Shown: positions 3,418 through 28,352 of the stretch, piece after piece
Numbering within the stretch: position 1 is the stretch's first letter
Layout of the letters: every line of letters begins with the position of its first letter
Assembly: GCF_011008905.1 (NCBI RefSeq)
Contig: NZ_JAAIVI010000017.1
Location: forward strand, 1,116,001 to 1,180,000
Direction of reading: 5' to 3'
Length of the DNA stretch: 64,000 nucleotides
Source: Wenzhouxiangella sp. XN201
Lineage (GTDB): Bacteria; Pseudomonadota; Gammaproteobacteria; Xanthomonadales; Wenzhouxiangellaceae
Program-made: the position numbers and the translations under genes
The notes under the pieces: generated by a model
What the model saw: only the letters and a program-made list of their open reading frames with translations
Databases searched by the model: none
What the model was told of the DNA's origin: nothing

Positions 3418-3490
3418 AGGGACCAGGGACGAGGGACCAGGTTTTCGATGTTCGGTTTCAGAGGTATGCTGGTCCCTAGTCCCTAGCCCA
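3418..3490. repeat. Inverted pair of heptanucleotide tandem repeats between tnaA and the ALDH gene
   Basis: The left arm has three 7-bp units: GGGACCA at 3419, GGGACGA at 3426 and GGGACCA at 3433. The right arm is the reverse orientation of the same theme: TGGTCCC at 3470, TAGTCCC at 3477 and TAGCCCA at 3484. The arms face each other across 27 bases, so the transcript can fold into a stem-loop just after the tnaA stop and right before the next start codon. There is no T-run, so a classical terminator is unlikely. Compare the arrays at 7133, 11658, 28331 and 40881. Confidence 0.8.
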
Positions 3491-3499
3491 TAAGTTTCC

Positions 3500-4882
3500 A
3501 TGCCCACTGATACCTCCCAGTACTCGAACATGCTTGCCGAGCTCCGCGCACACTTCAATGGCGGCCTCACCCGTCCTCTGGGCTGGCGACGCGAGCAACT
3601 GGCTGCCCTGTCGCGCCTGCTCGAGGAGAACGAAGGGCGGCTCAACGAAGCGCTGGCCGAAGATCTGGGCAAGCCGCCCCAGGAAGTACTGCTGGGAGAG
3701 ACAGCGCTGCTGTTCAGCGAGATTGACCATGCCCGCAGGCATCTCAAGTCCTGGACGAAGCGCCGGCGTGTGCGCACGCCCATGGTGGGCAAGCCGGGTC
3801 GCAGTTGGGTGCAGCCCGAACCGTACGGGGTGGTGCTGATCATCGGTGCCTGGAACTATCCCGTCCAGCTTTTGCTCAGCCCGTTGATTCCGGCGCTCGC
3901 GGCCGGCAATTGTGCCGTGCTCAAGCCCTCGGAGATTGCCGCCGCCACGTCACGCTTGCTGGCCGAACTGATCCCGAAGTACCTGGACGAGCGGGCTGTT
4001 CGGGTGGTCGAGGGTGCGGTGGAAGAAACCACGGAACTGCTCAAGCAGCACTTCGACCATATCTTCTACACCGGCGGTGCCGCAGTGGGCCGGATCATCA
4101 TGCGGGCCGCGGCCGAACACCTCACGCCGGTGACCCTGGAGCTGGGCGGAAAAAGTCCCTGCGTGATCGATGCCGGGGCGGACATCGAGTCGGCGGCCCG
4201 GCGGCTGACCTGGGGCAAGTGCCTCAACGCCGGGCAGACCTGCATCGCGCCTGACTACGTGCTCGTCACGCCATCCGAGCGCGACAAGCTGATCGGCGCC
4301 ATCGAGCACGAATTGTTCGAAATGTACGGCTCCAACCGATTGGAAAGTTCGGACTACTGCAAGATCATCAACCGGCGGCACTTCGATCGCCTGCGAAATC
4401 TGCTCGACAGCGGCCGGGTCGTGATCGGCGGCAAGGTCGACGAGGAAAACTGCCGGATCGAACCGACCGTGATGACCGAGGTGGCGCCCGATTCTGCAGT
4501 GATGCAGGAGGAAATTTTCGGGCCGATTCTTCCAATCCTCGAAGTCGAGAACCTCGACGAGGCGATCGCTTTCATTCGCCAGCGTGACAAGCCGCTGTCG
4601 TCCTACCTGTTCACCCGTTCGGGCGAGTCCGAGCAGCGCTTCGCCGAGTTGGTCTCGACCGGTAACCTGTGCATCAATGACACGCTGATGTTCATGTCGG
4701 TGCCGGACCTGCCCTTCGGCGGCGTGGGCATGAGCGGTATGGGGCAGTACCACGGCAAGGCCGGCTTCGATCGCCTGTCGCATCTCAAGGCGGTGATGAA
4801 GCGCGGAAGATTCCCGGAGATTCCGGTCCGCTTCCCGCCGTACAGCCGGTTCAAGATGCGCCTTCTCAAGTGGTTCAGCTGA
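3500..4882 (+). CDS. Class 3 (ALDH3-like) aldehyde dehydrogenase
   Basis: NAD(P)-dependent oxidation of aldehydes to acids. The 460 residues have the compact ALDH3 layout without the long N-terminal extension of class 1/2. Signature pieces are PYGVVLIIGAWNYP, FYTGGAAVGR, general base Glu214 (LELGGKSP) and nucleophile Cys248 (NAGQTCIAPDYVL). The C terminus is SHLKAVMKRGRF followed by a basic, hydrophobic end that could hold a membrane-peripheral anchor, as in fatty-aldehyde or coniferyl-aldehyde dehydrogenases. The substrate cannot be decided from sequence. It lies 84 bases after tnaA, with the heptamer element between, and 34 bases before plsC, so it may be co-transcribed with either. Confidence 0.9.
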   Translation: MPTDTSQYSNMLAELRAHFNGGLTRPLGWRREQLAALSRLLEENEGRLNEALAEDLGKPPQEVLLGETALLFSEIDHARRHLKSWTKRRRVRTPMVGKPGRSWVQPEPYGVVLIIGAWNYPVQLLLSPLIPALAAGNCAVLKPSEIAAATSRLLAELIPKYLDERAVRVVEGAVEETTELLKQHFDHIFYTGGAAVGRIIMRAAAEHLTPVTLELGGKSPCVIDAGADIESAARRLTWGKCLNAGQTCIAPDYVLVTPSERDKLIGAIEHELFEMYGSNRLESSDYCKIINRRHFDRLRNLLDSGRVVIGGKVDEENCRIEPTVMTEVAPDSAVMQEEIFGPILPILEVENLDEAIAFIRQRDKPLSSYLFTRSGESEQRFAELVSTGNLCINDTLMFMSVPDLPFGGVGMSGMGQYHGKAGFDRLSHLKAVMKRGRFPEIPVRFPPYSRFKMRLLKWFS

Positions 4883-4916
4883 CACTTTTCTGACTGTTTG
4901 TTCGTTAGGGGGATCG

Positions 4917-5711
4917 ATGAACGAACAAAGATCTCAAGGCATGGCGGGTTCGGTCGGCCGTCGCTGGCAGCGACTGCGACTGGTTCCCGAGTGGCTGTGG
5001 TTACCGATCAACGCGCTACAACTGATCGTGACCCTGCTGTGGTCGGCCGGTGGCATCAGTCTGGCGCTGCTGGTCCGCCTGGTCACCGGCAGCGAACGCA
5101 TTCCCCTGCGCATGGCCGCATGGTTTTGGGCGCCGGGTCTGTTGCTGGGTGCTGGAGCCCGGCTGGAAATCGCCGGGTCGGAGAAAGTCGATTTTTCACG
5201 CCCGCATTTGTTCGTGGCCAACCATCAGTCGATGATCGACATCTGTGCACTGTTCATGGCCGTTCCCGTCCCGCTTCGCTTCATGCTCAAGGCCTCGCTC
5301 GGCAAGGTGCCATTTCTGGGCGGGTATACGAAGGCGATGGGCATGATCCTGCTCCGGCGGGGTGATTCGGTCAGTGTGACCAGGCAGCTCGAACGGGCTG
5401 CCGAGCTGCTGCAAGAAGGTCACAGCCTGGTCGCCTTTCCGGAGGGTACGCGTGGTCACGACGGCCGTGTGCGTCCCTTCAAGGCTGGCGCCTTGCGCGC
5501 CGCGATCAGGGCCGGCGTGCCGGTCGTTCCGGTCGCCATCGAGGGCAGTGGTCAGGTCATGCCGCCGGGCGGATTTGCCATTCGCCCCGGCCGAATTCGC
5601 CTGATCTTCGGACAGCCAATCCCGACCGAGGGAGTCACGCTGTCGGATCGGCATCAGTTGGCCCGCAACGCGTTCGCTGCGGTCAGCGCACTCAAAAGCC
5701 GCCTCGGCTGA
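4917..5711 (+). CDS. plsC: 1-acyl-sn-glycerol-3-phosphate acyltransferase
   Basis: Inner-membrane acyltransferase that makes phosphatidic acid from lysophosphatidic acid in phospholipid synthesis. Of 264 residues, two hydrophobic segments fall at about 28-55 and 66-82. The HX4D catalytic box is NHQSMID (His103, Asp108). Block III is FPEGTRG and block IV the VPVVPVAIEG region. ATG 4917 has the ribosome site AGGGGGA just upstream. It follows the ALDH gene by 34 bases, so an operon is likely. Confidence 0.92.
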   Translation: MNEQRSQGMAGSVGRRWQRLRLVPEWLWLPINALQLIVTLLWSAGGISLALLVRLVTGSERIPLRMAAWFWAPGLLLGAGARLEIAGSEKVDFSRPHLFVANHQSMIDICALFMAVPVPLRFMLKASLGKVPFLGGYTKAMGMILLRRGDSVSVTRQLERAAELLQEGHSLVAFPEGTRGHDGRVRPFKAGALRAAIRAGVPVVPVAIEGSGQVMPPGGFAIRPGRIRLIFGQPIPTEGVTLSDRHQLARNAFAAVSALKSRLG

Positions 5712-5779
5712 GACCGGGCGGATCAATCCCGGGTTCGGCGTTATCATCGCCGTTGATTCGCCATATTCCCGAGACCACC

Positions 5780-27198: not shown

Positions 27199-27272
27199 GC
27201 GTGGTCAGGCGTTTGCTCAAGTCCGCAGGATAGCCGGATTCGATGGCCGCGAAAAGCATCGTCGGCCGGGGC

Positions 27273-27278
27273 TACAAT
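27273..27278 (+). promoter_or_regulatory. Candidate -10 element upstream of queA
   Basis: TACAAT at 27273 (five of six consensus bases) lies 28 bases before the queA ATG, so a short leader would result. No good -35 is visible 16-18 bases upstream. A GGCCGGCCGGCC run follows it. Confidence 0.35.
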
Positions 27279-27305
27279 GGCCGGCCGGCCCGATCCCCCA
27301 TTGGC

Positions 27306-28325
27306 ATGAAGCTATCCGACTTCCACTACGAATTGCCCGAGCGGCTGATTGCGCAGTATCCGCTGTCCGAACGCTCGGCCAGTCGCCTATTGCAGCTTGG
27401 GCGCGAGTCCGGGCGCTGGGCCGACCGTCAGTTCTCCGATCTGCCCGACCTGCTCGATTCGGCAGACCTGCTGGTGTTCAACAACACGCGGGTCATTCCC
27501 GCCCGATTATGGGCGCGCAAGCAAAGCGGCGGGCGCGTCGAGATTCTGATCGAGCGTGTTGTCGATGAAGGGGAGGCGGTGGCGCAGCTGCGGGCCAACC
27601 GCAAGCCAACGGCGGGGAGTCGACTGCGGGTCGATGAGCGTTTCGAACTGGAAGTGCTGGGCCGGGAAGGCGATTTCTGGCGACTGGCTGTTGCCGAGGG
27701 CCCGGCCTGGTCGGACCTGCTCGAAGCCGCGGGGCATATGCCGTTGCCGCCGTATATCGAGCGTGGCGACGAGGCGATGGACAGTGAGCGTTACCAGACG
27801 GTGTACGCACGGGTGCCGGGTGCAGTGGCCGCGCCGACCGCCGGACTGCATTTCGACCAGGCGATCTTCGATCGGCTCGACGAAAAGGGTGTGACCCGGG
27901 CCGAATGTACCTTGCACGTCGGCGCTGGCACGTTCCAGCCGGTGCGGGTCGAAGACGTGGCCGAGCACCGCATGCATGCCGAATGGCTGTCTGTGTCGCC
28001 GGAGCTGGTCGAGTCTGTCGAGGCGGCCCGCAGGCGCGGTGGTCGGGTCGTGGCGGTCGGCACCACGGCTGTGCGCGCCCTGGAAACGGCTGCTGCCGGG
28101 GGCGAGCTGGCACCGTTCGAGGGCAACAGCCGCCTGTTCATTTATCCCGGTTACGAATTTCGGGCGGTCGATGCGATGATCACCAACTTCCATCTGCCGG
28201 GGTCGACCTTGTTGATGCTGGTCAGTGCCTTTGCCGGCCGCGAAAATGTGCTGGCGGCCTATCGGCATGCGGTCGAGGCGGAGTACCGGTTTTTCAGTTA
28301 TGGCGATGCGATGTTTATTGGTTAA
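27306..28325 (+). CDS. queA: S-adenosylmethionine:tRNA ribosyltransferase-isomerase
   Basis: Adds the epoxycyclopentane ring to 7-aminomethyl-deazaguanine in tRNA during queuosine synthesis. The 339 residues carry the family landmarks MKLSDFHYELPERLIAQYPL, DLLVFNNTRVIPAR, YQTVYARVPGAVAAPTAGLHF, TLHVGAGTFQPVR and NFHLPGSTLLMLVSAF. ATG 27306 matches the family start; an in-frame ATG 63 bases upstream is not needed. It is first in the usual queA-tgt-yajC-secD-secF order. Confidence 0.97.
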   Translation: MKLSDFHYELPERLIAQYPLSERSASRLLQLGRESGRWADRQFSDLPDLLDSADLLVFNNTRVIPARLWARKQSGGRVEILIERVVDEGEAVAQLRANRKPTAGSRLRVDERFELEVLGREGDFWRLAVAEGPAWSDLLEAAGHMPLPPYIERGDEAMDSERYQTVYARVPGAVAAPTAGLHFDQAIFDRLDEKGVTRAECTLHVGAGTFQPVRVEDVAEHRMHAEWLSVSPELVESVEAARRRGGRVVAVGTTAVRALETAAAGGELAPFEGNSRLFIYPGYEFRAVDAMITNFHLPGSTLLMLVSAFAGRENVLAAYRHAVEAEYRFFSYGDAMFIG

Positions 28326-28330
28326 AAGAC

Positions 28331-28352
28331 GGTTTCAGGGTTCAGGGTTCAG
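28331..28352. repeat. Heptanucleotide tandem repeat (GGGTTCA type) between queA and tgt
   Basis: Units GGTTTCA (28331), GGGTTCA (28338) and GGGTTCA (28345) are contiguous, starting 6 bases after the queA stop. Only one orientation is present. It sits in the 51-base gap before tgt. Confidence 0.8.

Follow-up and report, generated by a model that had tools for sequence, protein, structure and literature searches.

Facing arrays of short tandem words at gene ends in Wenzhouxiangella, and change of the word at junctions shared between species

The STRR of heterocystous cyanobacteria are heptanucleotide tandem repeats; MetJ boxes (8 bp) and ParR repeats (about 10 bp) are possible further parallels among short repeated words. 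Here, we analyzed tandem arrays of short words at gene junctions in a window of 64,000 nucleotides from Wenzhouxiangella sp. XN201 (the whole stretch under study; contig NZ_JAAIVI010000017.1, positions 1,116,001 to 1,180,000 of the forward strand), together with further samples of this genome and of its relatives. The arrays tend to stand in facing pairs of fixed polarity near gene ends, and, over the junctions compared, their position is shared between species while the word can change.

The closest described systems are those of Geobacter and Xanthomonas; the papers named in this text are cited from their accessible parts. Geobacter metallireducens carries paired tandem sites with four copies of the 8-bp unit GTTGCTYN, three copies of the 8/9-bp unit TCTCCGTS[Y] and five copies of the 7-bp unit MTYCTGA (PMC2700814). 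The GTTGCTYN and TCTCCGTS[Y] pairs lie on opposite strands at a variable distance, and a further element, four copies of GGGACCG in 49 places between and within genes, is not described there as paired. Binding of a global regulator is a proposal of that paper, and no such sites were identified in Geobacter sulfurreducens. In Xanthomonas and Nostoc, heptamer arrays (GGGAATC or GGGGA(C/T)T), mostly of four units, lie between genes near stop codons and are under-represented between divergent genes (PMC4692102). Two Xanthomonas genomes have 70 and 75 convergent inverted pairs, and 83% of the repeats have the same gene context in both; paired repeats are few in Nostoc. The accessible text of PMC4692102 reports one unit family per genome, which it explains by G-quadruplexes, offers quadruplexes and slippage as ideas on a function that it does not settle, knows no detailed literature on heptameric repeats before it, and cites three STRR-like heptanucleotides in Calothrix. 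Marine Gammaproteobacteria of the Beggiatoaceae have intergenic direct repeats of TAACTGA in 2-6 copies (PMC4679880), and REPINs, which occur with RAYTs, are extragenic inverted doublets around a spacer with predicted hairpins (PMC3116915). Recognition of tandem words has a precedent, because the dimer of the ribbon-helix-helix (RHH) protein ParB/omega of plasmid pSM19035 reads contiguous 7-bp words in parS, direct or inverted, and needs at least four of them for full activity (PMC9499535).

Paired arrays are already known from Geobacter and Xanthomonas; the present analysis adds that the word can be replaced in place, that polarity is fixed and that spacing is locked. The accessible part of PMC2700814 gives neither polarity or spacing statistics nor word replacement at orthologous junctions. 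Searches of the open-access literature, as far as its accessible text goes, gave no account of a word exchanged in both arms of an orthologous junction, no counts of fixed polarity, and no case in which spacing is locked while spacers vary freely. No paper there combined Wenzhouxiangella, repeat and intergenic, and the matches listed for the letters of the units look unrelated by title.

The arrays of the window were confirmed with Tandem Repeats Finder and by direct reading of the letters, genes were called with a home-made codon model, and flanking genes were named with NCBIfam. The source genome (G000; 3.13 Mb, 22 contigs, 97.88% complete) was sampled over 464 kb, namely the window and 20 roughly even stretches, with 56.2 kb of intergenic DNA; two of the 20 stretches had been shifted to take in known 7-mer places and a third takes one in by chance, so that period 7 is inflated. 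The intergenic arrays of period 5 to 12 numbered 0, 0, 9, 15, 1, 6, 0 and 0, and resampled DNA gave at most 0.2 arrays for any period, compared with these 31 arrays of period 7-10. When the window and the three stretches with known 7-mer arrays were removed (reduced sample, 47.8 kb intergenic), the counts were 0, 0, 1, 12, 1, 3, 0 and 0 (17 arrays). The arrays are confirmed and exceed chance by far, yet they are not purely of period 7: the excess lies at periods 8 and 10 besides 7, and period 8 leads. The earlier note on this window, made from its letters alone, had taken period 7 as the common property, and the counts do not bear this out; the outcome that it had named as refuting, period-7 arrays in junctions at the level expected from base composition, did not appear either. 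Periods 5, 6, 11 and 12 were missing among the intergenic arrays of two G000 samples (0/31 and 0/28); in the coding DNA of the G000 sample, 17 of 22 arrays had periods 6, 9 or 12. Compared with the STRR, 7-bp intergenic arrays are present (9 in 56 kb, 1 in the 48 kb of the reduced sample), but the periods in G000 are not restricted to 7, and hosts and units differ.

Among the congeners, G019 had 25 of 26 arrays at period 7 and one at period 10 (31.8 kb intergenic), the sole nearly pure period-7 set; some of its arrays are long and homogeneous, and one is an alternating higher-order repeat of 14 bp. Three others (G018, G026 and G027) had 5, 4 and 2 arrays in 23-31 kb of intergenic DNA, G034 of another genus had 4 in 11 kb, and the order-level outgroups G039, G041 and G054 had 3, 1 and 1. 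The samples of G003, G008, G009, G011 and G017 were small (2.4-6.8 kb intergenic, 2-5 arrays each) and chosen around array-neighbouring genes, and the assemblies of G008, G009 and G017 are 80-85% complete; 'array-rich' is therefore firm for G000 and G019 only. A survey of named loci (74 of 80, the six shorter than 6 kb being left out; 189 kb intergenic) gave 10 period-7 arrays, one of them in the Wenzhouxiangella locus L027 and five in two Thiocapsa loci.

The words form families. The earlier note had described the units as locus-specific and different at each spot; this holds inside the window, but genome-wide the families are reused over many G000 loci, and the array at 28331-28357 matches five more places. 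The CGCAGAT triple has 31 plus-strand and 32 minus-strand exact arms in G000 and 0-8 per strand in other congeners, and was found in 8 of 397 genomes of the phylum, G000 among them. A GGG tract is missing from the GTTNGCTN, CRCAGAT, AGTGTKA and AACTTGC-type units and present in GGGACYN and some GGKTTCA units, so that most Wenzhouxiangella families lack the tract of at least three G in the unit that the G-quadruplex criterion (Rehm et al.) calls for. In contrast to the accessible description of Xanthomonas, Wenzhouxiangella has several families, GGG is missing from most of them, periods reach 10, and the unit itself changes at a junction between species.

The arrays lie mainly at gene ends. In junctions of 60-600 bp from eight sets, one of which was picked for CGCAGAT sites, arrays were found at 65 of 276 junctions between co-directional genes, at 17 of 63 between convergent genes and at 10 of 151 between divergent ones (Fisher p 1.3e-6); the G000 sample alone gave 21/92, 7/23 and 4/53 (p 0.011). 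Divergent junctions are avoided. The median distance from an array was 23 bp to the stop codon and 53 bp to the start codon, so that the position at gene ends named in the earlier note stands. The Beggiatoaceae arrays differ: the accessible description gives a single unit that in most cases lies immediately before a start codon, and one indirect repeat. Predicted folding had a median z of -5.82 in 36 junctions with at least two arrays, -3.55 in 48 junctions with one array and -0.47 in 60 controls, as expected, because any inverted rows of words would give such values.

Neighbouring arrays in one junction mostly face each other. In the G000 sample, 18 of 21 such pairs had convergent arms with a common unit, compared with 4% of random array pairs. 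Over all sets, 62 of 74 adjacent pairs were inverted with a common unit, under a less strict unit comparison for which there is no separate control, and the gaps between arms were 5-146 bp (up to 378 bp in the CRCAGAT family); tandem units in two opposite-strand sets at variable distance are what the arrays have in common with the Geobacter sites. Convergent pairing was also found in 19 of 27 cases in the chosen G000 stretches and in 7 of 13 in G019, and in none of the four and three adjacent array pairs of G026 and G034. All 67 unmixed pairs, from 11 families, had the fixed polarity of their family, with one mixed junction; without the 20 chosen stretches, this held for 32 of 32 pairs from 10 families, with one mixed. 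Because the orientation of each family was taken from the data itself, only 56 (or 22) of these agreements are free. A count by loose clustering, with 6 apparent exceptions in 62, was set aside in favour of explicit motifs, since it merges units within two mismatches. The median arm length was 27-31 bp at periods 7, 8 and 10, period-7 arms measuring 31 bp or about four units; the detector shortens arms of 9+10 spacing (18 bp).

The CRCAGAT family allowed words and spacers to be compared within one element. With three units in each arm, the spacing was identical across the arms in 29 of 29 G000 elements (23 as 9,10 and 6 as 10,10), and the outer edge TGRAAC was conserved. When partners were searched from 49 exact arms at 33 places, 47 partners beat the best shuffled score; all 47 had the spacing of the anchor, and word identity was 98.1%. 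Spacer letters were equal across the arms of an element at 94 of 184 positions (23 elements), compared with a shuffled mean of 101.1. A profile of 52 arms had a footprint-like conservation, with words at 0.92-1.00, the next base mostly T (0.87-0.98) and other spacer positions down to 0.29; these arms were picked by partial word matches, so that the partner search is the cleaner test. In five other families, mirrored and non-mirrored units barely differed (0.001 to 0.031; 2-10 junctions each, no significance test). That word and spacing are locked while the spacers vary freely speaks against simple slippage and against arm-to-arm copying, and the latter was rejected, as mirrored units and spacers show no clear excess likeness. 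The cores of CRCAGAT elements were alike at the shuffled level save for two inverted matches (scores 35 and 26; shuffled maximum 22), the stronger joining L172 11387 and L018 14333, two short cores in opposite orientation. Separately, the cores of two different pairs, L015 9755-9816 and L279 (the aminotransferase|bacterioferritin junction of G011), share a GCGGGGCGGCTTYGCCGCGCC hairpin, perhaps a dispersed repeat or a terminator.

In the window, the arrays and the genes next to them are as follows.

3418..3441, plus strand: left arm AGGGACC (7 bp), 3.4 copies, starting 2 bp past the stop codon of the tryptophanase-family gene 2018-3415
3472..3486, minus strand: right inverted arm GTCCCTA, 2.1 copies, complement of the AGGGACC arm, with 30 bp between the arms
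7132..7155, plus strand: AAGTGTG array (7 bp), 3.4 copies, covering the end and stop codon of the aminotransferase gene 5753-7147
7218..7244, minus strand: 8-bp array AACCAGCN, 3.4 copies, right-arm type of the GTTNGCTN family
11658..11688, minus strand: ACTGACA-type 7-bp array, 4.4 copies (AGTTGYC on the minus strand), abutting the dsbE/ccmG stop codon
11688-12224, minus strand: dsbE/ccmG, the gene next to the ACTGACA-type array
28334..28353, plus strand: TTCAGGG array (7 bp), 2.9 copies, a single arm between queA 27243-28325 and tgt 28377-29480
40887..40913, plus strand: left arm CACAGAT with 10+10 spacing, between hutI (39649-40872, minus strand) and hutH (41059-42564, minus strand)
41013..41039, minus strand: right arm, reverse complement of CACAGAT with 10+10 spacing; the core is 99 bp

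The five spots listed in the earlier note were recovered at, or within a few bases of, the positions that it gave, and so was the 8-bp unit of the fifth. Its figure of up to six copies is approached only by both arms of 3418-3486 together, no single array reaching six, and its list lacked the period-10 pair between hutI and hutH. At a score of at least 11, the called intergenic DNA of the window (4,337 bp) held 3, 1, 0 and 3 arrays of periods 7, 8, 9 and 10, compared with 0.00, 0.01, 0.00 and 0.01 in 200 order-2 resamplings; the array at 7132-7155 is outside this count because two thirds of it overlap the gene 5753-7147. NCBIfam names at the arrays were tryptophanase-family protein, bacterioferritin, QueA, Tgt, DsbE/CcmG-type protein, MetK, AhcY, MetF, HutI and HutH. 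An aldehyde dehydrogenase-like flanking protein scored under the cut-offs of the NCBIfam families shown, and the CcmG neighbour matched NrfF under the NrfF cut-off. The nearest named relative of the window QueA is that of Wenzhouxiangella sp. 15190 (83% identity). A scan of the window with Rfam at gathering scores found no family. A terminator-like GC-rich hairpin lies at 7155-7200, between the AAGTGTG and AACCAGC arrays, and some cores elsewhere are similar by eye. An unpaired 10-bp repeat of CTGGCTGG type at 44421-44447, 5 bp ahead of a called start codon, is unlike the gene-end arrays.

The presence of arrays clustered by junction across species. Over 19 window junctions compared in at least two species, there were 36 shared species pairs, and none of 5000 permutations was as high. 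At queA|tgt, the arrays were, depending on the species, of the GGKTTCA, AGTGTKA, GGTGAAA, GGKTTCC or CGCAGATGAA class, of a loose GGAGNNC type, or missing. With classes assigned by eye, a tgt tree of 22 rows gave 11 class changes, between the minimum of 6 and the shuffled mean of 15.2, so that the classes are partly inherited and partly switched. The queA|tgt core of G023 resembles the reverse complement of the G012 core (local score 13 inverted and 5 direct; 0/5000 shuffles). In two congeners (L147 of G027 and L155 of G018), this junction holds, by eye, longer repeats with units of about 100 bp in several copies and no short arrays; repeats of any sort seem to arise readily at this site.

The ahcY|metF junction carries GGKTTCA in both arms in G000, G003 and G017, GGTGAAA in G029 and G019 (with a looser form in G022), mixtures with GGTTTAA in G014 and G025, and other words in G023 and G012. 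In G011 it has an unpaired AAATAGT array in an altered junction and was left out of the arm test for that reason. In this test, left and right arms from the same species fitted each other better than after permutation (10 species; 0/5000), and both arms appear to have changed word together; the species are related, so that this fit represents few independent events. The same test was not significant at metK|ahcY (4564/5000; 4 species), the hut junction (285/5000; 5) or queA|tgt (832/5000; 4). The hut junction carries, in both arms, CACAGAT in G000, G011 and G017, CGCAGAT in G019 and a CACGAAG-like word in G008. At the junction of the 7218-7244 array, GTTNGCTN is the left arm in G011, G003 and G017. 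Arrays at ccmG|ccmH were found in G000, G003, G008, G009, G011 and G017; G019 shows a trace, and in the more distant species inspected no array was visible by eye. In G034, L355 10731-10817 holds about 12 copies of an AGTTGTC-like unit close to the ccmG|ccmH word of the window. A unit change between species at one junction was seen at queA|tgt, ahcY|metF and hut, and the other refuting outcome named in the earlier note, arrays conserved as ancient sequence in all relatives, did not appear.

We tentatively propose, at something less than even confidence, that the arrays are multi-site recognition elements for one or more putative, cooperatively binding factors, with slippage secondary. An arm would be a row of short words at a set pitch (7, 8 or 9/10 bp) of about 27-31 bp in total, and two arms of one polarity would face each other over a core of irrelevant sequence. 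Each subunit of the factor, most plausibly a DNA-binding protein, would contact one word, and several specificities would exist side by side in one genome. Such elements would persist chiefly at gene 3' ends, where they might serve as transcript-end or nucleoid-organizing sites; the word at a locus could be replaced over time in both arms, and slippage would add extra copies. Sequence-specific reading is favored because the features that stay constant are the word, its pitch, the polarity and the symmetry of the arms, whereas spacers and cores vary and, over longer times, the word itself sometimes changes. The weaker period-7 excess in the reduced sample leaves recognition unaffected, as it does not rest on period 7. 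In pSM19035, parS is a plasmid centromere overlapping promoters, whereas the Wenzhouxiangella arrays lie at chromosomal gene ends and their reader is putative.

Several points weigh against recognition by such a factor. The factor is putative, no search for a binding protein having been made, and several words and pitches, unrelated to one another, coexist in one genome and would call for several factors or an adaptable family. Binding sites alone leave the replacement of the word at one junction unexplained, and single-armed arrays occur, as at queA|tgt in G000. The comparison of words with spacers is limited to the CRCAGAT family of G000, and half of the 40 G000 stretches (20) had been chosen for holding that family. 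At metK|ahcY, the AGTGTKA pair was found in 4 of 11 species (G000, G011, G019 and G022) with one word throughout, so that replacement is not universal; G014 has a CCTTTTC array there, and no array was detected in the remaining six. Finally, the high predicted hairpin potential may leave room for an RNA or cruciform role.

The main rival is a mobile-element origin, in which REPIN-like elements or elements resembling miniature inverted-repeat transposable elements (MITEs) have, as arms, terminal inverted repeats composed of transposase-binding sites in tandem, and are spread by a putative transposase that prefers the 3' ends of genes. We consider this possible but rather doubtful. Inverted arms of fixed polarity, unrelated cores and the outer TGRAAC edge of CRCAGAT elements resemble transposon ends, and the terminal inverted repeats expected of MITEs are present in this family, given the same spacing in both arms of all 29 elements. 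Further, the pair of cores with score 35 looks copied, in opposite orientation, and the number of exact arms varies greatly among congeners (31+32 in G000). However, decay of inserted copies would not give randomized spacers beside words that are 98% identical, and the different families seen at one junction across many species would imply recurrent, independent insertion. In contrast to REPINs, the arms are rows of tandem words. PF01797, the family searched for a RAYT/Y1 transposase, had no match in G000, G003, G008, G009 or G017, other transposase families not having been searched; it was present in G011 and G019, and this candidate was rejected for its lack of consistent presence in array-bearing relatives.

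The second rival holds that replication slippage makes and resizes the arrays, that template switching in hairpins copies one arm to the other, and that selection, where there is any, favors hairpins at transcript ends. Slippage clearly also acts, as the long homogeneous arrays and the 14-bp higher-order repeat of G019 indicate, and the strong predicted hairpins, the within-species fit of ahcY|metF arms and the inverted match between the G023 and G012 queA|tgt cores are in favor of this rival as well. As the whole explanation, it is unlikely in our judgment. A hairpin or template-switch origin predicts the opposite of free spacers and of mirrored units that are barely more alike in five of five families; there was no spacer covariation, the arm test was not significant at the three other junctions, and periods 5, 6, 11 and 12 are missing in G000. 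Slippage alone is insufficient because it produces neither a fixed polarity nor a spacing locked across the two arms. The earlier note had suggested a process that writes or slips 7-mers at junctions: its slipping part fits the G019 arrays, and for its writing part no enzyme was found in the PF00078 and PF01797 searches.

A dedicated enzyme, telomerase-like or another polymerase, that writes the unit at junctions from a template is very improbable. Replacement of the unit at fixed sites is consistent with it, and a unit pointing centreward from both sides would be expected of the extension of two facing 3' ends. The exact 9+10 spacing with free spacers, however, misfits simple templated addition. 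A reverse transcriptase as writer, sought with PF00078 in 61 genomes, was rejected, with one match in G000, one in G008, nine in G019 and none in G003, G009, G011 or G017; other polymerases were not searched. The nine G019 matches lie within about 30 kb (G019:C1:3792391-3820990), four of them equal in score. A telomere-fusion geometry was dropped because the pairs have cores and reverse transcriptases are not consistently present. Chance low-complexity repeats arising from base composition are refuted by 31 arrays against at most 0.2 per period in 56 kb, by the 17 that remain in 48 kb, and by convergent pairing in 18 of 21 cases against 4%.

A more specific form of sequence-specific reading, which we put forward as a speculative and on balance doubtful idea, is that fast-changing tandem-binding proteins, or another sequence reader, keep facing rows at fixed junctions, and that when the specificity changes, all units in both arms are replaced in place. 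If so, plasmid heptad centromeres would have a chromosomal counterpart in these arrays, and the repeat families of Geobacter, Xanthomonas and cyanobacteria would be joined into one system. The genus offers a natural experiment in which one junction carries different words by species while the symmetry of both arms and the polarity are kept, and such contrasts help to tell sequence-specific reading from selection for quadruplexes or hairpins and from mere slippage. Such arrays are also poor markers across species.

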